NCBI GenBank assembly: GCA_022703375.1
Contig: JAKLDS010000004.1
Location: forward strand, 1 to 64,000
Reading direction: 5' to 3'
Source: Deltaproteobacteria bacterium
Lineage (GTDB): Bacteria; Desulfobacterota; Syntrophia; Syntrophales; Smithellaceae
DNA: 64,000 nucleotides
The translations under genes and the position numbers were made by a program. The notes under the pieces are model-generated. The model was given only the letters and a program-made list of their open reading frames with translations. It did no database searches and was not told the DNA's origin. Below are positions 44,615-55,495 of the stretch, piece after piece. Within the stretch, counting starts at the first letter, position 1, and every line of letters begins with the position of its first letter.

Positions 44615-44895
44615 TGATCTTCCCCCGTAAAAACGGACAGCTGGTTAAGAGACACCTCCGGCATTTTCAAAAGCCAGAGGAATTCTGTATTTTAACGCAG
44701 AATGTCGGCGCTGACGATTATAAAAGAGTTCAATGTAATCAAAAAGGCTGGCTCTCGCTTCTGATCGTGTCTTGTAATCTTCAAAACCAACCCATTCAAT
44801 CTTCAGCGAATGAAAGAAACTTTCCATTGCAGCGTTATCCCAACAATTGCTTTTCCGACTCATGCTGCAGGTGATGCCAAAATTGCTCAATACCC
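44615..44895 (-). pseudogene. IS3-family transposase remnant (orfB C-terminus plus one terminal repeat)
   Basis: The minus-strand frame ends with SMSRKSNCWDNAAMESFFHSLK and YNRQRRHSALKYRIPLAFE. These are the final DDE-domain blocks of IS3-type transposases, with the third catalytic Glu in AMESFF. Homology begins at about GVLSNFGI (near 44893). The earlier part of the frame, to 45109, does not look like transposase, so the first two Asp residues and orfA are missing. TGATCTTCCCCC at 44615-44626 resembles an IS3-family terminal inverted repeat. The other end was not found. The element is dead. Confidence 0.8.
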
Positions 44896-45064
44896 CTTGT
44901 CGTCGTCCTTGTGTTTTGATTTTTAAATGATAAGAAAATAGCTTACGGTTGGCAGGCGCTGTTCGTATTGCGCTACAATCTGGGCTTTGACAATTTCCTA
45001 ACAGGCTGTTATGGATAAAGCAAAGGATTGAGAGCTTTGTATGACTATTTAAAACTAACAATTT

Positions 45065-45215
45065 CGTCATTCCGTGCAAACGAAGAGCGACTTTGAGCCT
45101 ACCCTGCATCTGACACGGGGAAATCCAGTACTATCAATGGGCTTCTGGATACCCCCGGCATTCACCGGGCTTTGGGCTGGAGTAAGACCCGGCTCCTGCC
45201 GGGCCAGGTAAGACG
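45065..45215. repeat. Dispersed-repeat-type sequence upstream of der
   Basis: The stretch has the phrases CGTCATTCCGTGC and GGAAATCCAGTACTA near one end and GGGCTTCTGGATACCCCC with a CCCGGCtcctGCCGGG hairpin near the other. Sequences of the form GTCATTCC...GGAATCCAG are frequent short repeats in proteobacterial genomes (from memory). No gene is seen between about 44900 and 45344 besides decayed insertion-sequence material. Confidence 0.45.
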
Positions 45216-46679: not shown

Positions 46680-46708
46680 TTGACAAGAATAAACGGATTG
46701 TTTATATA
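46680..46708 (+). promoter_or_regulatory. Sigma-70 promoter of the aro leader/operon
   Basis: Perfect TTGACA (46680-46685) and TATATA (46703-46708) are separated by exactly 17 bases. Transcription would start near 46715, about 24 bases ahead of the leader ORF. Confidence 0.85.
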
Positions 46709-46738
46709 GCGACGAACGACGAAAGAAGGTTTTTCACG

Positions 46739-46834
46739 ATGGACAGAAAGCTGAATGCAAATATTAATTTTTATGGCTACTGGTTTTATACCTATTATGC
46801 ATCGGTCTGCCCGTCGCGGAGAAGGACTTGTTAA
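46739..46834 (+). CDS. Aromatic-residue-rich leader peptide of the aro operon (31 aa)
   Basis: This short ORF has 31 codons and a TAA stop, with AAGAAGG nine bases before the ATG. Codons 11-20 read NF-YGYWFYTYY-like sequence (residues F11, Y12, G13, Y14, W15, F16, Y17, T18, Y19, Y20). Eight of ten are aromatic, with all three aromatic amino acids represented. It lies between a consensus promoter and overlapping antiterminator and terminator hairpins, and ahead of eight genes for Phe/Tyr synthesis. This is the layout of trpL- and pheL-type attenuators, where slow decoding of the sensed codons favours readthrough. Its end overlaps the 5' arm of the candidate antiterminator. No homologue could be checked. 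Confidence 0.85.
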   Translation: MDRKLNANINFYGYWFYTYYASVCPSRRRTC

Positions 46835-46896
46835 GGTAAAATAAACCAAAACAGCCGTGGGTAGACCGAAAAAGCTGCCCACGGCTTTTCTGTTTT
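46803..46896 (+). promoter_or_regulatory. Transcription attenuator: alternative antiterminator and terminator
   Basis: The terminator is formed by AGCCGTGGGTAG (46853-46864) pairing with CTGCCCACGGCT (46875-46886), followed by TTTCTGTTTT. The competing antiterminator is CGGTCTGCCCGT (46803-46814), inside the leader ORF's last codons, pairing with GTGGGTAGACCG (46857-46868): 12 pairs including three G-T. The two structures share 46857-46864 and exclude each other. A ribosome that finishes the leader covers 46803-46814 and allows termination. One stalled at aromatic codons 11-17 leaves it free. An imperfect 1:2 stem (46741-46747 with 46806-46812) is possible. Confidence 0.8.
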
Positions 46897-46930
46897 AAGG
46901 CCAGGGCGGCGAAAGCACCCTGGCCTTTTT
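46897..46930 (+). terminator. Second, tandem terminator before aroF
   Basis: AAGGCCAGGG (46897-46906) pairs with CCCTGGCCTT (46918-46927), and T residues run to 46930. It directly follows the attenuator terminator and lies 91 bases ahead of aroF. I found no alternative structure that would remove it. Confidence 0.85.
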
Positions 46931-47020
46931 CATGAGACTCAAAGTATGCAAGTGAAACGCAGCAGACTTTGTAAGTCGAATTATCCCGCATAAGCAGGGA
47001 GTTATTTTAAGGAGGAAACA

Positions 47021-48031
47021 ATGATTATAGTTATGAAGAACCACGCTACGGAAAAACAAATTGACGATGTGATCCGCTGGATTGAATCGGTCGGATACAA
47101 GGCTCATCCATCGAGCGGCGTCGAGAGGACAATTATCGGCGCTGTCGGCGATAACCGCGATAAGTCAATTCTGAAATATGCGGAATCTCTGCCGGGTGTT
47201 GAAAAGACCATGCCTATTTTAAAGCCTTATAAACTGCCAAGCCGCGAATCCCATGAAGGCAACAGTATTGTTTCTGTGGGTTCCATACAAATCGGCGGCC
47301 CGGAATTTGTCGTGATGGCCGGCCCCTGCTCCATTGAAAGCGAAGAACAGTTGATGGAAAGCGCCTATGTTGTGCAGAAAGGCGGCGCCCAGATACTGCG
47401 CGGCGGCGCTTACAAACCGCGCACTTCACCTTACAGCTTTCAGGGCATGGAAGAAGAAGGGCTCAAACTGCTGGAGCAGGTCCGCCTGCGCACCAGCATG
47501 CCCGTAGTTACGGAAGTCGTTAATCCGGCCGATGTTGACCTTGTCGAATCCTACGCCGACCTGCTGCAGATTGGCGCGCGCAATGTGCAGAATTTTGCCT
47601 TGCTGAAAAAAGTCGGCCAGTCTCGCAAACCGGTGCTTTTAAAGAGAGGCATGATGACCACTATCGAAGAATTGCTGATGTCGGCGGAATATATTCTCTC
47701 TTCCGGCAATCCGAATGTGATTCTCTGCGAACGCGGTATCCGGACATTCGAAACAGCCACCCGCAACACCTTGGATTTAAGCGCCGTCCCGGTCTTAAAA
47801 GGCTTGACGCATTTGCCGGTCATAGTTGATCCGAGCCATGCCGCCGGTCATTGGAAATTGGTGATTCCGCTTTCCCGCGCCGCTGTGGCGGTAGGCGCCG
47901 ACGGATTAATTGTGGAAGTTCATCCGCAGCCGGAAATGGCAGTATCCGATGGGGCGCAGTCTTTAAAACCGGAAAAATTTTATCAGTTGATGGAAGAAAT
48001 CCGCGCTCTGGCAGCGGCAATCAAACATTAA
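47021..48031 (+). CDS. aroF: 3-deoxy-7-phosphoheptulonate (DAHP) synthase, type I-beta with N-terminal regulatory domain
   Basis: This 336-residue protein has a ferredoxin-like regulatory domain (about 1-70; [20 protein letters not shown]) as in Thermotoga DAHP synthase, where it binds Tyr or Phe for feedback inhibition. A TIM-barrel catalytic domain follows, with [24 protein letters not shown] and [15 protein letters not shown], which bind PEP, erythrose-4-phosphate and metal. It commits carbon to the shikimate pathway. AAGGAGG lies before the ATG. As first structural gene behind the attenuator it is probably controlled both by attenuation and by feedback. Confidence 0.96.
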
Positions 48032-48043
48032 AGGAGATATTAT

Positions 48044-49135
48044 ATGCGGTCGCTGAAAGTCAACCTGGATAAAAAAACACTGTCATCTTACGAAATCCGT
48101 ATCGGCAACGGCATTATTGACAGGGTGGCGTTGCTTATTGCCAAAAACTTCAAAGCCGGCCGACATATAATTATCACGGACAGCAATATCAGACGGCTGC
48201 ACGGAGCAAAGCTTGAGCAAAGCCTGAAGGACGTGGGATTGCATGTGGACATTATCGAATTTCCCGCGGGCGAAGCCGCCAAGAATATCAATACCGTCCT
48301 GCAGATATCGGAAAAGATGCTGCAACTGGGCGCGGACAGGACAACGACGCTTATTGCGTTCGGCGGCGGTGTCACCGGAGATCTGGTGGGTTTTATCGCT
48401 TCAGTTTTTATGCGTTCCCTGCCCTATCTGCAAATTCCCACGTCCCTTATCGCTCAGGTTGACAGCAGCATCGGCGGTAAAACAGCCATTGACCTGCCCT
48501 GCGGAAAAAATCTGCTGGGAACTTTTTACCAGCCGCGAGCCGTCTTTGCCGATTTAAGTTATCTGGAAACATTGCCCCAAAACGAATTCAGCAACGGGCT
48601 GGCGGAAATTATCAAATACGGAATTATTGATGATGATAAAATGTTCCGCACACTGGAAGACAACATGGATGCGATAAAAAACAGGGATACTTCACTGCTG
48701 ATAAAGATAGTGGAAAACTGCTGCCGGATAAAAAAGTCAATCGTCGAAATTGACGAAAAGGAACAGGGGCTGCGGCGTATTCTCAATTTCGGTCACACCC
48801 TGGGCCATGCCATTGAAGCAGAATCGCAATATATGATATCGCACGGCGAAGGAGTTGCTCTGGGAATGATTGCCGCCGCCCGGCTCTCGGAAAATGCCGG
48901 TTATCTGGCCGCGGTGGAAAGGGAACGCATTGAGAACATCATCGGTATGTCCGGTTTGCCCAGCCGGATTCCGACAACGCTTTCAGCCGGGAAAATCATT
49001 GAGCGCCTGAAACTGGACAAGAAAAAAAGAGGTGACAATATTCATTTTGTTTTGGTAAAGAAAATAGGCATGCCTTTTGTCAACGGAGGCATGGATGAAA
49101 ATATTATCGGCACGGTAATCGCAGGATTGCAATAA
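48044..49135 (+). CDS. aroB: 3-dehydroquinate synthase
   Basis: This 363-residue protein has the family blocks GGGVTGDLVGFIASVFMRSLP (about 105-125, NAD and carbaphosphonate site), IPTSLIAQVDSSIGGKTAID and the metal-binding NFGHTLGHAIEAE and HGEGVALGM. It converts DAHP to 3-dehydroquinate using NAD and a divalent metal. It follows aroF by 12 bases with AAGGAGAT ahead of the ATG. Its TAA overlaps the pheA ATG (TAATG), giving coupled translation. Confidence 0.96.
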   Translation: MRSLKVNLDKKTLSSYEIRIGNGIIDRVALLIAKNFKAGRHIIITDSNIRRLHGAKLEQSLKDVGLHVDIIEFPAGEAAKNINTVLQISEKMLQLGADRTTTLIAFGGGVTGDLVGFIASVFMRSLPYLQIPTSLIAQVDSSIGGKTAIDLPCGKNLLGTFYQPRAVFADLSYLETLPQNEFSNGLAEIIKYGIIDDDKMFRTLEDNMDAIKNRDTSLLIKIVENCCRIKKSIVEIDEKEQGLRRILNFGHTLGHAIEAESQYMISHGEGVALGMIAAARLSENAGYLAAVERERIENIIGMSGLPSRIPTTLSAGKIIERLKLDKKKRGDNIHFVLVKKIGMPFVNGGMDENIIGTVIAGLQ

Positions 49136-50211
49136 TGAAAGAGCTGGATAAATTAAGAGCCAATATGAAAGAAAAGGACCGCGAGATAATCCGTTTGCTC
49201 AACGAGCGCGCCGGTATTTCCGTCCAAATCGGCCAGGTTAAAGGACAGGAAGGAATGACTGTTTATGATCCGGCGCAGGAAGCACGTGTGTACAATTATT
49301 TGCAGGAGCTAAATTGCGGGCCGCTGCCGGGCGGATCCTTAAAAGTGATTTTCCGGGAAATCATTTCCGCTTCGCGTGAATTGCAGAAGCCCACCGCTAT
49401 CGCTTTTCTGGGACCGGAAGCATCTTTTTCCCATTTGGCCTGCCGCAATCATTTCGGCGATGCCGCCCGGCTTTTTCCCCAGCCCGGCATTAACCGTGTC
49501 TTCGATGAAGTGGAAAGAGGAACAGTGGACTGGGGAGTTGTTCCCATCGAAAATTCACTGGAGGGATCAGTGAACGTTACTCTGGACAGACTGATTCTGA
49601 CGCAATTGAAAATCAGGGCGGAAATATTTCTCAGAATCAGTCATTGCCTGCTGTCAGCGGCTGGTAATTTAAACGAAATTAAGAAAATATATTCTCATCC
49701 GCAGGGTTTGGCGCAGTGCCAGTTCTGGTTGAAAGCCAATATGCCCAATTGCATCCTGCGGGAAACAGAAAGCACCGCCGCTGCCGCACAAATGGTTCGC
49801 GGCAAAAAAACGGAGGCAGCTATCGGCAGTTCACTGGCGGCAAACAGCTACGGACTGAATATACTGGCGGAGGGGATAGAAGATAATTCTTCCAATACAA
49901 CGCGTTTTCTGGTCATCGGCCACGGCGCCAGCGCCGTTACCGCACGGGATAAAACATCTTTAATATACGCAACGCCTCATTCTCCGGGTTCACTGCATCG
50001 CGCACTCGCGCCTTTCGCCGAACGCGGCATTAATTTGATTAAAATTGAGTCGCATCCGGTAAAAGAAAGGTTATGGGAATATCTCTTCTTCGTGGATATT
50101 GATGGACATATCACCGATGAAACAGTAAAAGGTTGTCTTGCGGAATTGAAAGAGAAAACTACTTTTTTAAAACTGCTGGGTTCTTACCCGCGGGCTGAAG
50201 GTGGATTATGA
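49135..50211 (+). CDS. pheA: Bifunctional chorismate mutase / prephenate dehydratase (P-protein)
   Basis: This 358-residue protein has an N-terminal AroQ chorismate mutase helix bundle (about 1-85; RANMKEKDREIIRLLNERA). A prephenate dehydratase domain (about 88-265) follows, with AFLGPEASFSH, VPIENSLEGSV and the NTTRFLVIG motif containing the catalytic Thr. A C-terminal ACT domain (about 280-350) follows that. In the ACT domain the usual ESRP Phe-binding motif reads ESHP, so feedback inhibition may be altered. It produces phenylpyruvate for phenylalanine. The stop overlaps the aroDE start by four bases. Confidence 0.95.
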   Translation: MKELDKLRANMKEKDREIIRLLNERAGISVQIGQVKGQEGMTVYDPAQEARVYNYLQELNCGPLPGGSLKVIFREIISASRELQKPTAIAFLGPEASFSHLACRNHFGDAARLFPQPGINRVFDEVERGTVDWGVVPIENSLEGSVNVTLDRLILTQLKIRAEIFLRISHCLLSAAGNLNEIKKIYSHPQGLAQCQFWLKANMPNCILRETESTAAAAQMVRGKKTEAAIGSSLAANSYGLNILAEGIEDNSSNTTRFLVIGHGASAVTARDKTSLIYATPHSPGSLHRALAPFAERGINLIKIESHPVKERLWEYLFFVDIDGHITDETVKGCLAELKEKTTFLKLLGSYPRAEGGL

Positions 50212-51785
50212 TTTGCATACCTATTACGGCAGACACTAACAAAGAAGCGCTGCGTGATATCGAACGCAGTTGTCCCATTGCCGATTTTATCGAATTACGC
50301 ATGGATTTGATAGCGAATGGAAAACTGGAAGAACTGATTGCCGCCGCTCGCTCCTGTTCCGGCAGAATCAGGATAATTGTCACGAAAAGAAAAAAAGCCG
50401 AAGCAGCCCCTGCCGGCAAATCACTGAATACCAAGGCGGGAACAACCGATACCACCGGGCAAAAGGTTTCTCTTTTAAAACAGGCCGTCGAACTCGGCGC
50501 CGATTATATTGACATCGAACTGACCGAGGGAAAAGAAAGCATTGAAGAACTGCGCGCCGCCTGTGCCGCCCGCGGCGATAAAACAAAAGTTATTGTTTCC
50601 TACCATAACATTAAAGCAACTCCCTCTCTGGCGAAGCTGAAAAATATTTTTCAGCAGGCCGTTGCCGCCAAAGCTGATGTCGTGAAAATCGTCACTCTGG
50701 CGCAAAACGCCGAGGACAATCTGAAAGTGCTGAGCCTGATACCATATGCCCAAAAATACTCCATTGCCATAATTGCCTTATGCATGGGGGACGAGGGACG
50801 CATCAGCCGGGCCGTAGCGCCTTTTCTGGGCGGCTTTTTGAGTTTTGCCACTCTGGAACAGGGAACACAGTCAGCACCCGGACAGCTGACCGTTCAGGAG
50901 ATGAAGCAAATCAACAAACTGGTCAGGGGAGAACCACTCCCGCGAAAATCCCCGGTTTTTTCTCCGGCAGAGAAACGCCCGCAAAATTACGTACTGCTGG
51001 GCAATCCGGTGCGGCAGAGCTTTTCGCCATTGATGCACAATGCCGCCCTGGAAGAAATGGGCATTGAAGGTAGGTACACCGCCTTTTGTGTCCATGATAT
51101 CGGAGCTGTAATCCGCGGTTTAAGGGGCATGGATATCCGCGGCGCCGGAGTTACCATTCCCTATAAAATAGCCGTCATGGAATACCTTGATGATATTAAT
51201 GACGATGCCCTGAAAATCGGCGCAGTTAACACCATCATCAATAATAACGGACGATTAACCGGATTCAATACGGACTGGCTTGGTTTGCTTCTGACACTGC
51301 AGGAAGCAATGACCATCAAGGATAAAACCTTTGTGATTCTCGGCGCCGGAGGAACGGCACGGGCGGCTGTTTACGGTATTTTGCAGGAGGGAGGAATCCC
51401 TATAATTGCCAACCGCACTCCCGAGAAAGGCAGAATCCTCACCGGAAAACTGAATTGTGAGTTTCATTCTCTCAACGATATAGGGAAAATCAAGGCTGAT
51501 TGCCTGATCAATACGACACCCGTGGGAATGTATCCCCATAACGATAAATCGCCGGTAGTAGCTAAAGACCTGAAAGGCTACAAGTATGTTATGGATGTGA
51601 TTTACAATCCTCTGAAAACCAAAATTTTACTCGACGCCGAAGCCCAGGGCTGCGTTGTTTTTCCCGGCCTGGATATGTTCGTGCATCAGGCCGCCGAGCA
51701 AATTCGCCTCTGGACAGGCCGGGAACCCAACCGGGCACTGATGAAAAAAACTGTTTTAGAAAGGTTAGCTAAAATTGGCTGCTGA
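50208..51785 (+). CDS. aroDE: Fused 3-dehydroquinate dehydratase (type I) / shikimate dehydrogenase
   Basis: This 525-residue protein combines two enzymes. Residues 1 to about 240 are type I dehydroquinase, with FIELRMDL, the catalytic His in VSYHNIKATPS and the Schiff-base Lys in ADVVKIVTLA. After a Pro/Lys linker, residues about 262-525 are shikimate dehydrogenase, with NPVRQSFSPLMHNAAL, Lys in TIPYKIAVMEYLD, Asp in GFNTDWLG and the NADP loop GAGGTARAAVYG. Such AroDE fusions are known in plants and some bacteria and channel dehydroquinate to shikimate. It overlaps pheA by four bases and aroA by 11. Confidence 0.95.
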   Translation: MICIPITADTNKEALRDIERSCPIADFIELRMDLIANGKLEELIAAARSCSGRIRIIVTKRKKAEAAPAGKSLNTKAGTTDTTGQKVSLLKQAVELGADYIDIELTEGKESIEELRAACAARGDKTKVIVSYHNIKATPSLAKLKNIFQQAVAAKADVVKIVTLAQNAEDNLKVLSLIPYAQKYSIAIIALCMGDEGRISRAVAPFLGGFLSFATLEQGTQSAPGQLTVQEMKQINKLVRGEPLPRKSPVFSPAEKRPQNYVLLGNPVRQSFSPLMHNAALEEMGIEGRYTAFCVHDIGAVIRGLRGMDIRGAGVTIPYKIAVMEYLDDINDDALKIGAVNTIINNNGRLTGFNTDWLGLLLTLQEAMTIKDKTFVILGAGGTARAAVYGILQEGGIPIIANRTPEKGRILTGKLNCEFHSLNDIGKIKADCLINTTPVGMYPHNDKSPVVAKDLKGYKYVMDVIYNPLKTKILLDAEAQGCVVFPGLDMFVHQAAEQIRLWTGREPNRALMKKTVLERLAKIGC

Positions 51786-53028
51786 AACACATTTCTCGGA
51801 AAATTGTCCGACAATCAATATACCGGGGTCCAAAAGCCTGACCCAACGCGCGCTGATAACAGCCGCTCTGGCGCGGGATAATTCCTTTATCAGCAATGCC
51901 CTGCTTTCCGAAGATATAAATTATCTTGTTGACGCTTTGCGTGAGTTGGGCGCCCGGATAGTTTTCGCTGACGGTGGATTTTCTGTTTACGGCACCGCAG
52001 GAAAGTTAATCAATTCCGGAAATCCTTTATTTCTCGGTTATAACGGCACCGCTCTGCGCTTTCTTTCCGCCCTGGTCTGCCTGGGTGAAGGCCGGTATCT
52101 GATAACCGGAGAAAAGCGATTATGTGAAAGGCCGGTAGGCGCTCTGGTTACTGCCTTGCAGGGCATGGGTGTTGATATTTCCTGCGCCGGCAATTGTCCG
52201 CCCGTAACAATCAATGCTGCGGGGCTGGCCGGCGGCAAAATAGAACTGAAGGATATTGCAAGCTCGCAGTATGTCTCGGCGCTGCTGCTTTGCGCTCCTT
52301 ACACAAAAAAGGGGATGGAGCTTACGCTCCAGGGTGATATCGTTTCCGCTCCTTATATTGATTTGACCATTGACGTAATGAAGAATTTCGGCGCCGCGGT
52401 AGAAAAGACCGGCCAGCGCGAATATCATGTTCATGCCGGGAAAATATATCAGGGCCGGAAATATTCTGTCGAAGGTGATGCATCAAGCGCCTCTTACTTT
52501 TTCCTGGCCGCCGCGCTGCTGCAAAAAACAATTCGCGTCAACGGCATCAGCCGCAAAAGCAAACAGGGCGATATTCGTCTTCTGCATATTCTGGAGCAGT
52601 CAGGGTGCGAAATAAATTCCGCAGATTCTTGGGTGGAGGTGAGCGGCAAAGAATTGCCGGAGGGAGATTTGATCTTTGATTTGAACGACATTCCGGACAT
52701 GGTGCCGACACTGGCCGTCCTGGCCGCTTTCCGCGCCGGACAGACAGTAATTACCAACGTAGCTCATTTGCGCCTCAAGGAAAGCAATCGTCTGGCCGCG
52801 CTGGTAGCCGAATTCAGCCGCTGCGGTATAAAAGCCGCAGAAACAAACGATGGACTGATTATTAACGGCGGCAGAATAAGGCCTGCCGTTATCGAAACAT
52901 ATAACGATCATCGCATTGCCATGAGTTTTGCCATTGCTTCGCTTATCGCGCCAGGCCTGCAAATTAGCGATAAAAAATGCGTGGATAAATCCTTCCCGTC
53001 CTTCTGGGAGGAGTTGAAAAAGATATGA
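51775..53028 (+). CDS. aroA: 3-phosphoshikimate 1-carboxyvinyltransferase (EPSP synthase)
   Basis: This 417-residue protein has the two-domain EPSPS fold, with IPGSKSLTQRALITAALA near the N-terminus, the LRLKESNRLAAL motif and a closing YNDHRIAMSFAIA block. The PEP-site loop reads GYNGTALR where most enzymes have GNAGTAMR or GNSGT, so the first Asn is Tyr and the Ala/Ser is Asn, while the Gly is kept. This could change PEP or glyphosate affinity. The start is TTG 51775-51777 inside the 3' end of aroDE, with GAAAGG ten bases upstream. It overlaps aroK by four bases. Confidence 0.94.
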   Translation: MAAETHFSENCPTINIPGSKSLTQRALITAALARDNSFISNALLSEDINYLVDALRELGARIVFADGGFSVYGTAGKLINSGNPLFLGYNGTALRFLSALVCLGEGRYLITGEKRLCERPVGALVTALQGMGVDISCAGNCPPVTINAAGLAGGKIELKDIASSQYVSALLLCAPYTKKGMELTLQGDIVSAPYIDLTIDVMKNFGAAVEKTGQREYHVHAGKIYQGRKYSVEGDASSASYFFLAAALLQKTIRVNGISRKSKQGDIRLLHILEQSGCEINSADSWVEVSGKELPEGDLIFDLNDIPDMVPTLAVLAAFRAGQTVITNVAHLRLKESNRLAALVAEFSRCGIKAAETNDGLIINGGRIRPAVIETYNDHRIAMSFAIASLIAPGLQISDKKCVDKSFPSFWEELKKI

Positions 53029-53597
53029 AAATTATTCTGACCGGTTATCGGGCCAGCGGCAAAACAACTGTGGGGAAATTGCTGGCTCTGTTAATGAAAG
53101 TCCCTTTTTACGATTCCGACCATCTGGTAGAGGAAATAGCCGGAACACCGATTAAAAATATTGTGGCGCATCAGGGATGGGAATATTTCCGCAATCAAGA
53201 AACTGAAGTCTTAAGACAGCTCTCGGCTAAAGGTGATTGTGTAATAGCCACCGGTGGCGGCGCAATTCTGGCTGCCACAAATGTTGAGATATTAAAAAAT
53301 ACGGGGCTGCTTATCTGGCTTAACGCACCAATTAACGAAATTGTCGGCAGGCTGAAAACTGATGCACAAAATGATGCGACAAGACCGCCGTTTACAGATG
53401 AAGATATAGAGCAGGAAACCATCATGATTCGGGAAGAAAGGCTTCCCGTATATCAGAAAACAGCTGATATAATAGTAAATACAGCCGGTAAAACCGCCGC
53501 GCAAATAGCGGAAGAGATTTATCATAGATTACAGAAGACAAAAGAAAGAAGTCAGGAGACAGAAAAAAAAGTTAATAGTAAACTTATGTCTTCTTGA
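53025..53597 (+). CDS. aroK: Shikimate kinase
   Basis: This 190-residue protein has Walker A GYRASGKTT (about 7-15), YDSDHLVEE with the shikimate-binding Asp, the IATGGGA loop (about 74-80) and the lid Arg region TRPPFTDEDI. It phosphorylates shikimate for EPSP formation. Its start overlaps the aroA stop (ATGA). The last 20 residues (KTKERSQETEKKVNSKLMSS) are polar and probably unstructured. A 51-base gap then separates it from aroC, the longest gap inside the operon. Confidence 0.95.
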   Translation: MKIILTGYRASGKTTVGKLLALLMKVPFYDSDHLVEEIAGTPIKNIVAHQGWEYFRNQETEVLRQLSAKGDCVIATGGGAILAATNVEILKNTGLLIWLNAPINEIVGRLKTDAQNDATRPPFTDEDIEQETIMIREERLPVYQKTADIIVNTAGKTAAQIAEEIYHRLQKTKERSQETEKKVNSKLMSS

Positions 53598-53648
53598 TAC
53601 TTGATTCTGTATTATACCTTTTGTATTCTGACATCTGGAGGATTATTT

Positions 53649-54725
53649 ATGTCAGGCAACACTATTGGTGAAATATTCCGCGTAACCACATGGGGAGAAT
53701 CGCACGGTGAGGCACTGGGCGCAGTTGTGGACGGCTGCCCCGCAGGCATTAAGTTGTCTCACGCGGACATTCAAACCGCATTGGACCGGCGGCGTCCCTC
53801 TGCCGGTGCGGCTTCAACGGCGCGCAAAGAAACTGATAAGGTGGAGATTCTTTCGGGAGTGTTTGCAGGAAAAACCACCGGCACCCCAATTTCACTCTTA
53901 ATCCGCAATAACGATGCCCGGTCGTCATCTTACAACGAATTGAAGGAAGTTTTTCGTCCCGGCCACGGCGATTTAACCTACTGGCAGAAATATGGTATCA
54001 GAGACTGGCGGGGAGGCGGGCGATCCTCGGGGCGGGAAACTGCGGCACGGGTTGCCGCGGGCGCCATTGCGCAAAAAATCATCGGCGGGGCGGGGATGGA
54101 AATTATTGCCTATACCCGGTCAATCGGCGGCATTGCAATTGATTACCGTAATATTCCGCGAGGAAAACAGTTACACAAGGCCATCCTTAACAACGCGCTC
54201 TATTGCCCTGACAAAAAGGCTTCAACGGCAATGGCATTGAAATTAGCGGCTATTCGTAAAGCAGAAGATACTCTGGGCGGCGTTGCCGAAATTATTGTCC
54301 GGAACTGCCCCGCCGGTTTGGGCGAGCCGGTCTTTGATAAAATGGATGCGGAGCTGGCAAAGGCCTTAATGAGCATCGGTTCGGTAAAGGCGGTGGAAAT
54401 CGGCGCCGGCTTTGCCGTAGCTGATCTGCCGGGTTCCCAGGTTAATGATCAGATGACAAAAAAGGGATTTATCAGCAACAACGCCGGCGGAATATTGGCA
54501 GGTATTACCAACGGGGAAGATATAATTTTACGGGCATACTGCAAACCAGTGCCGTCGTTAGGCAAAGAGCAATTAACAACAGACCAGAAAGGCAATGAAC
54601 GAAAAATAAAAATTGCCGGACGGCACGACGTCTGCGTGCTTCCCCGTATCGTGCCAGTCTGCGAAGCGATGACGGCAATTGTGCTGGCCGATCACTTGCT
54701 CAGGCAGAAGGCAGCCCGGCTATGA
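53649..54725 (+). CDS. aroC: Chorismate synthase
   Basis: This 358-residue protein has the chorismate synthase signatures TWGESHGEALGAVVDGCPAG (about 12-31), the DRRRPS loop, FRPGHGDLTYWQKYG, the DWRGGGRSSGRETAARVAAG block and the RHDVCVLPRIVPVCEAM end. It uses reduced FMN to form chorismate, the last common step. The ATG at 53649 with GGAGG seven bases upstream is preferred to the longer frame beginning at 53601. The start of tyrA overlaps its stop by four bases. Confidence 0.96.
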   Translation: MSGNTIGEIFRVTTWGESHGEALGAVVDGCPAGIKLSHADIQTALDRRRPSAGAASTARKETDKVEILSGVFAGKTTGTPISLLIRNNDARSSSYNELKEVFRPGHGDLTYWQKYGIRDWRGGGRSSGRETAARVAAGAIAQKIIGGAGMEIIAYTRSIGGIAIDYRNIPRGKQLHKAILNNALYCPDKKASTAMALKLAAIRKAEDTLGGVAEIIVRNCPAGLGEPVFDKMDAELAKALMSIGSVKAVEIGAGFAVADLPGSQVNDQMTKKGFISNNAGGILAGITNGEDIILRAYCKPVPSLGKEQLTTDQKGNERKIKIAGRHDVCVLPRIVPVCEAMTAIVLADHLLRQKAARL

Positions 54726-55495
54726 AGGATATCAGTATCGGCATAATTGGCGGCACCGGCGGCATGGGACGGTGGCTGGCCGATTTACTGCAGAAAGGCG
54801 GTTATCAGGTAATAGTCCTGGGCAGAAAGACAAAAATGCCTCTCGACGAACTGACATCATCCTGCGCTGTTGTTGTTGTTTCCGTGCCGATAGCGGCGAC
54901 AGCGGACGTAATCAAACAGGTCGGACCGCTAATGCCCGCCAAATCGCTTTTAATGGATTTAACCTCGCTGAAAAAAGAACCTGTCGAACTCATGCTCGCT
55001 AATTCACAGGCGGAAGTCATCGGCTGCCATCCGCTCTTCGGACCGAACATGGAAAATCCGGCCGGACAAAATATCGTTTTGTGCCAGGCCAGAGGCAATA
55101 AATGGTATGACTGGCTGAAAAAACTCTGGCTGGCAAACGGTTTGCAGGTTCTGGAGACATCGCCGGAAAGACATGATGCCATCATGGCAATTGTTCAGGC
55201 GCTCAATCACCTTAATACTATTACACTGGGACTGGCGCTGGCCGAAACGGCAATTCCCCTTAATGAAATAAAAAAATATTCCACGCCAATATTTCAAACC
55301 AAAGAAGCTATTGTTAAAAAGATATTTACGGAAAGCCCTCTGCTTTACAAAGACATCATTATCCGTAATCCTGATGTCGGGAAAATACTTGATATTTACG
55401 ATAAAGCGCTCGCTGATATCCGCCGGGCAATCCAATCCCGTAACAGCGATGAATTTAAAGATTTGCTGGAAAAAACAGCCAAAATTCTTTTCTAA
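54722..55495 (+). CDS. tyrA: Prephenate dehydrogenase (TyrA family)
   Basis: This 257-residue protein has an N-terminal NAD(P)-binding motif GIIGGTGGMGRWLADLL (about 7-23). The IGCHPLFGPNM segment with the catalytic His lies near residue 101, and the C-terminal half is helical. It turns prephenate into 4-hydroxyphenylpyruvate, or arogenate into tyrosine, and the cofactor and substrate cannot be fixed from sequence. It has no fused chorismate mutase or ACT domain, and the mutase is provided by PheA in the same operon. It is the last gene of the operon. No clear terminator follows. Confidence 0.93.
   Translation: MKDISIGIIGGTGGMGRWLADLLQKGGYQVIVLGRKTKMPLDELTSSCAVVVVSVPIAATADVIKQVGPLMPAKSLLMDLTSLKKEPVELMLANSQAEVIGCHPLFGPNMENPAGQNIVLCQARGNKWYDWLKKLWLANGLQVLETSPERHDAIMAIVQALNHLNTITLGLALAETAIPLNEIKKYSTPIFQTKEAIVKKIFTESPLLYKDIIIRNPDVGKILDIYDKALADIRRAIQSRNSDEFKDLLEKTAKILF

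Follow-up and report, generated by a model that had tools for sequence, protein, structure and literature searches.

The eight genes of aromatic amino acid synthesis that follow der, from aroF to tyrA, are most likely read only under shortage of aromatic amino acids, by means of a short leader gene and two linked terminators placed in front of aroF in the window (the whole stretch of 64,000 nucleotides analyzed here). Sequence and comparison with relatives revealed the leader, its aromatic codon run, both terminators, a set of coevolving alternative helices and the geometry that joins them. Attenuation by a leader with chained terminators is very probably the best explanation for this arrangement; the core attenuation mechanism we regard as highly likely, and the helix that links the second terminator to it as probable. 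The result offers a testable rule for the switching of amino acid synthesis in a large group of anaerobes, most of them uncultured.

A leader gene rich in aromatic codons precedes aroF

In the window, 356 nt separate the end of der (46664) from the start of aroF (47021), the gap that the original prediction had reported. Between era and der, an ORF on the - strand (44645-45109) resembles an IS3-type transposase fragment by eye. The der-aroF gap holds the following elements:

46680..46708, +, sigma70-like promoter, TTGACA at 46680-46685, N17, TATATA at 46703-46708 (sequence)
46724..46729, +, Shine-Dalgarno-like AGAAGG of the leader ORF (sequence)
46729..46755, +, region 1, leader start-codon region, partner of region 2 as anti-antiterminator (folding, swap test)
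46739..46834, +, leader ORF MDRKLNANINFYGYWFYTYYASVCPSRRRTC, 31 codons (sequence; conserved in the class, see below)
46769..46798, +, control codons 11-20, F Y G Y W F Y T Y Y, 8 aromatic (sequence)
46803..46822, +, region 2, antiterminator 5' arm, in the last leader codons (folding, swap test)
46853..46868, +, region 3, antiterminator 3' arm and T1 5' arm (folding, covariation)
46853..46897, +, terminator T1, hairpin 46853-46887, -22.1 kcal/mol, T-rich tail (folding)
46874..46888, +, region 4, T1 3' arm, alternative partner of region 5 (folding, swap test)
46897..46911, +, region 5, T2 5' arm, alternative partner of region 4 (folding, swap test)
46897..46931, +, terminator T2, hairpin 46897-46927, -22.3 kcal/mol, own T tract (folding)
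46916-46927, +, region 6, T2 3' arm (folding)

The promoter, the 31-codon leader with its ribosome site and the eight aromatic residues in codons 11-20 had all been predicted, and each stands where it had been placed. A promoter score of >=10/12 was reached upstream of 29/91 homologous leaders versus 1/91 shuffled sequences, and an SD-like motif precedes the leader in 86/91 homologues; ribosome site and ORF are both conserved. In the 15 codons that lead up to region 2, the aromatic share across 92 homologues is 50.7% in the leader frame, while the two alternative frames give 14% and 17%; the aromatic enrichment of the leader frame is beyond chance. Phe and Tyr codons occur in all 92 aligned leaders and Trp codons in 87 of them, and aromatic identity is kept across leaders, with F and Y interchanging. 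By genus, exactly one Trp codon was found in 31/38, at least one in 35/38 and none in 3/38, whereas a random pick among aromatic codons would leave a third of genera without Trp. The last aromatic codon lies 5, 8 or 11 nt from region 2 in 89/92 leaders. With a putatively translated ORF behind a ribosome site and a run of codons for the end products, the element carries two features of ribosome-mediated transcription attenuators, a known mechanism.

There are two other ways of reading the leader. Tyr/Phe T-boxes and metabolite riboswitches control the same genes in other phyla, yet such an element has next to no likelihood of standing here in place of a peptide-coding leader: the strong aromatic bias belongs to the leader reading frame, and an Rfam search of the leader gave no family at gathering or E<=1, its sole match being a chance microRNA, with no covariance-model match to a T-box or to the amino-acid leader families (Trp_leader, Phe_leader and others). 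It is also very improbable that the leader peptide itself is the effector, through nascent-chain stalling or as a trans-acting peptide of the kind proposed for peTrpL. A conserved VCPS tail after the aromatic run would suit such a role, but this tail is encoded by region 2, so that RNA pairing explains its conservation, and the aromatic residues swap freely.

Alternative helices probably connect two terminators

T1, at 46853-46887 with TTTTCTGTTTT, competes with an antiterminator that pairs about 46803-46813 with 46859-46868, plus a few inner pairs. Folding of 46801-46900 gives this antiterminator as the minimum-energy structure (z -3.8); when the 5' part is included in the fold, the terminator wins over it. 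An antiterminator with its 5' arm in the last leader codons, overlapped by a strong terminator with a T tract, had been proposed from the letters alone, and both were recovered by folding. Their mutually exclusive pairing, likewise proposed, was borne out by folding and by swap tests (below), and it is a further feature shared with ribosome-mediated transcription attenuators, as is the 1:2 anti-antiterminator, here with region 1 upstream of the control codons. The proposed architecture was sound in what it described and incomplete in what it left out: T2, the 1:2 anti-antiterminator and helix 4:5.

T2 starts ten bases 3' of T1, inside the interval that the original prediction covered yet unmentioned there. 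Its 5' arm can pair instead with the 3' arm of T1, and the resulting helix 4:5 (46874-46880 with 46904-46910, and 46883-46888 with 46897-46902) reaches about -22 kcal/mol. T1 and T2 have a CCATGG/CCGTGG core in common.

Conservation of leader and terminators in class Syntrophia

We drew aroF orthologues from genomes of class Syntrophia, a class of one order; relatives with names are Smithella, Syntrophus and other Syntrophaceae/Smithellaceae metagenome genomes (Thermodesulfobacteriota, Syntrophia, Syntrophales in the NCBI taxonomy). The leader lies upstream of aroF at 108/110 loci, the exceptions being G059 and a divergent aroF paralogue in G118 (L166, G118:C72), which has degenerate T1/T2-like hairpins and no leader ORF. 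At two further loci, L078 and L082, aroF stands in another context, without leader. An automatic scan detected T1 and T2 together at 98/109 loci from 19 families, and T2 was recognized by eye also in L020, L026, L029 and L187; the 7/109 loci without a recognizable T2 are L034, L132, L045, L050, L051, L186 and the degenerate L166. Conservation among relatives had been put forward as a check on the prediction, and leader, aromatic run and alternative stems are indeed kept in nearly all of the class.

The position of T2 raises the question of its function. That the T2 hairpin or helix 4:5 affects translation or stability of the aroF mRNA, and not termination, is improbable: in most relatives about 20 nt separate the end of T2 from the aroF start, which places it just upstream of the aroF ribosome site, and L045, L050 and L051 lack T2 yet show some 4:5 complementarity, as this reading would have it, but a T tract, the mark of an intrinsic terminator, directly follows the T2 stem in nearly all loci, and in the window the distance from the end of T2 to aroF is 93 nt. 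The spacer before aroF is longer here than in relatives because of a dispersed repeat at 46929-47005, just 3' of T2, of which the genome holds at least three more partial copies; one of these sits directly 3' of the trp attenuator T2 (C33:25054).

Coevolution of the alternative helices

We examined covariation in fixed register in alignment A1 (57 sequences). T1 (3:4) and T2 (5:6) together had 94.2% of cells paired and 92 double changes, compared with 28 in shuffled alignments (0/500). The bridging helices 2:3 and 4:5 were paired in 89.6% of cells with mostly one-sided variation, and they covary weakly in this register (13/500 for pairing, 19/500 for the covariation score), while the control helix 3:6 was 74% paired, with no excess over chance in the alignment. 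The compensatory changes expected in both stems were evident in the terminators, whereas in the 2:3 antiterminator the fixed-register signal was weak and came mostly from one-sided changes.

Since region 4 carries an insertion or shifts register in several families, we used register-free swap tests, in which duplex energies of native partners are compared with those of partners permuted among 41 genera (5000 permutations). Native partners were stronger for 2:3 (-22.4 versus -21.0, 0/5000), 3:4 (-23.6 versus -20.4, 0/5000), 4:5 (-20.4 versus -18.8, 0/5000) and 5:6 (-21.6 versus -17.4, 0/5000), as well as for 1:2 (-19.5 versus -16.4 kcal/mol, 0/3000); the controls 3:6 (2007/5000), 3:5 and 4:6 were not significant. 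With one sequence per family, 4:5 gave 25/5000, and both the genus and the family versions of the test remove shared ancestry incompletely. The hairpins 1:2, 3:4 and 5:6 thus alternate with the bridging helices 2:3 and 4:5 as in a his-type domino, and the strength of native partners supports two putative states, 3:4 with 5:6 (terminators formed, off) and 2:3 with 4:5 (terminators disabled, on).

A simpler scheme would have an ordinary single-terminator attenuator, with T2 as an uncoupled spare, a copy of T1 that reduces leak, and with 4:5 complementarity as a by-product of a common T1/T2 ancestor or of the CCATGG core. The core that the two hairpins share, the weak fixed-register covariation of 4:5 and the formation of T2 at equilibrium even when 2:3 has formed all fit this scheme, which we nevertheless consider unlikely. 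Shared ancestry predicts that 3:6 should equal 4:5, yet 4:5 is the stronger in 90/98 loci and only 4:5 coevolves: without the shared CCATGG core, 4:5 still gave 0/10000 by genus and 45/10000 by family, as against 9688/10000 for the control 3:6 extension. In the trpE leader of the same genome (GCCGTGAAGA) and in G050 (GGGCGG), extra bases in region 5 complement region 4 and fit region 6 poorly. A strong uncoupled terminator would, moreover, block the induced state too.

A proposed switch and its computed geometry

For the coupled, chained arrangement, we modeled stalling with transcripts that end at region 3 and without pairing across the ribosome; equilibrium folding with a ribosome mask up to the end of T1 had always returned T1 and was replaced by this scheme. 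The computed probability of 2:3 is 0.99 with the A site at codons 11-17, and also 0.99 at earlier codons; it falls to 0.59 when the A site reaches codon 19 and to 0.06 at codon 20, and past that codon it is 0. Because it collapses between codons 17 and 20, the switch point lies where the aromatic run ends. The Trp codon falls within the zone of full stall sensitivity. As modeled, this geometry of stalling and passage would suit a ribosome-mediated transcription attenuator. With region 3 held by region 2, regions 4 and 5 are computed to pair in 98/98 loci. Even with a stalled ribosome, T1 is favored over 2:3 at equilibrium, and T2 over 4:5; the choice would therefore have to be kinetic, made during transcription, as in known attenuators.

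We propose that the whole aro-pheA-tyrA operon is under a ribosome-mediated transcription attenuator, which would respond with OR logic to the supply of charged tRNA-Phe, tRNA-Tyr and tRNA-Trp. Given an ample supply of all three, the leading ribosome would pass codon 20 and cover region 2, so that T1 (3:4) and T2 (5:6) form and transcription ends before aroF. Under shortage of any one of them, the ribosome would stall on codons 11-17, and region 2 would pair with region 3 as soon as region 3 is made; region 4, left free, would pair with region 5 before region 6 exists, both terminators would fail, and the operon would be read. One stalled ribosome could in this way inactivate both terminators, and the gain would be less leak and a wider dynamic range. 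Without translation, pairing of the leader start codon with region 2 (1:2) should favor T1 and T2. In computed folds without a ribosome, however, 2:3 is preferred to 1:2 when the transcript stops at region 3, so an off state by default is not secured thermodynamically, and the position of region 1 upstream of the control codons, unlike in E. coli trp, makes it harder to account for how a stalled ribosome would prevent 1:2.

The probable operon downstream

All eight genes of the aro-pheA-tyrA set claimed in the original prediction were identified with NCBIfam:

47021..48031, +, aroF, 3-deoxy-7-phosphoheptulonate synthase, type Ibeta (TIGR01361)
48044..49135, +, aroB, 3-dehydroquinate synthase (TIGR01357)
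49135..50211, +, pheA, chorismate mutase / prephenate dehydratase (NCBIfam)
50208..51785, +, aroDE fusion, 3-dehydroquinate dehydratase / shikimate dehydrogenase (TIGR01093 and TIGR00507)
51775..53028, +, aroA, EPSP synthase (TIGR01356)
53025..53597, +, aroK/aroL, shikimate kinase (best NCBIfam matches, below curated cut-offs)
53646..54725, +, aroC, chorismate synthase (TIGR00033)
54722..55495, +, tyrA, prephenate dehydrogenase (best NCBIfam matches, below curated cut-offs)

Neighboring genes overlap or sit at short gaps, and a scan for terminators within the set found no clear excess; for these two reasons the eight genes are likely a single operon. Its products are chorismate, the precursor of Trp, together with the Phe and Tyr branches, matched by the F, Y and W codons of the leader.

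The same design recurs in the genome and across the phylum

A covariance model built on regions 2-6 matched further leaders in the same genome, before trpE, ilvB, a TrpB-like gene and a LivK-like ABC transporter. The trpE leader MEKKIITVSLNGWWWQNQIQGVVRR (NGWWWQNQ; G000:C33:24923-25052, L193/L259) has tandem terminators and is kept in relatives, and its region 5 motif mentioned above is a perfect complement of region 4. The trpE genes of relatives have tryptophan leaders, with tandem terminators in 43/46. In the swap test these leaders gave 38/5000 for 4:5, a weak replication of its coevolution because the control 3:5 also reached 156/5000.

A Val/Leu/Ile-rich leader (KLVVVV) with tandem terminators precedes the acetolactate synthase large subunit gene ilvB (G000:C1:98264-98384, L194). 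An F/Y-rich leader with one terminator precedes the LivK-like ABC transporter (G000:C54:20289-20376, L195), and further Phe/Tyr-rich leaders with attenuators lie before LivK-like ABC transporter genes at L232, L245 and L252, which suggests that these transporters import aromatic amino acids. Trp-rich leaders (NNWWWQ at G000:C57:8533-8645, L196; NWWWDNY at L239) precede a gene for a TrpB-like pyridoxal-phosphate enzyme. At L254 (G225:C18), a DAHP synthase gene is preceded by a Trp-only leader (RGWWWCSIG) and tandem terminators, as would befit a Trp-specific isozyme. At L229 (G039:C42), a Trp-rich leader (SIGWWWAG), also with tandem terminators, lies before a secreted protein that has no NCBIfam match.

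Matches at E<=0.001 were found in 184/395 genomes of the phylum, a frequency biased by the model, which favors tandem hairpins; the element is phylum-wide and not local. Among about 50 matches inspected by eye, aromatic leaders preceded DAHP synthase Ibeta in about 13, DAHP synthase Ialpha in 5, and 2-amino-3,7-dideoxy-D-threo-hept-6-ulosonate synthase (ADH synthase) in about 17; in the ADH synthase case that was checked (L212), 3-dehydroquinate synthase II lies alongside. Because aromatic leaders precede all three enzymes, the regulatory site seems tied to pathway entry and not to a particular enzyme gene. In a phylum-wide swap test the controls 3:6 (94/5000) and 4:6 (2/5000) were low too, probably through differences in G+C, so this set was not used as proof of 4:5. 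On balance we lean towards a double-lock domino present throughout the phylum, in which one amino-acid-sensing leader would govern two successive intrinsic terminators through chained alternative helices. A single genome would employ this design for its aro (F/Y/W), trp (W) and probably ilv (V) operons, and the design would persist at the start of the aromatic pathway even when an unrelated enzyme has taken over the first step.

Comparison with known attenuators

Like the enterobacterial trpL and pheL attenuators (Rfam Trp_leader, RF00513), the aro leader combines an ORF with control codons, 1:2 / 2:3 / 3:4 pairing and an intrinsic terminator before the first gene. Unlike them, it would sense three aromatic amino acids and control the common pathway, has a second, coupled terminator, uses the leader start-codon region as region 1, and is without sequence match to any Rfam family. 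The his attenuator of Salmonella and E. coli sets A:B, C:D and E:F against B:C and D:E, with the last hairpin alone as terminator. The aro leader is a similar domino chain of alternative pairs; in contrast to his, with its His codons, both 3:4 and 5:6 are terminators and the codons are aromatic.

For Desulfovibrio vulgaris, of the same phylum, a listing from 2005 gives a putative attenuator before the supraoperon aroA'-aroB'-aroQ.pheA-aroF-tyrA-trp (PMC1173090, Table 7, Merino database). It too precedes an aromatic supraoperon, one that starts with an ADH synthase gene, and its basis is solely a terminator/antiterminator prediction; that paper does not mention a leader peptide, and we found aromatic codons or tandem terminators mentioned nowhere in it. 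The tandem attenuators of Salmonella mgtCBR likewise place more than one attenuation unit in a leader, with two leader ORFs sensing two signals (PMC3641672), whereas the aro leader has one ORF and two chained terminators.

In the open-access literature we found neither a leader for three aromatic amino acids nor chained tandem terminators described, in keeping with the original prediction, which knew of no described attenuator with all three aromatic codons before a complete aro operon in this group. A sensor of three amino acids with coupled tandem terminators therefore appears to be an undescribed variant, and the three-amino-acid attenuator would be an addition to the list in one survey, where the amino acids with known attenuators are restricted to His, Leu, Thr, Trp, Ile/Val and Phe (PMC3766115).
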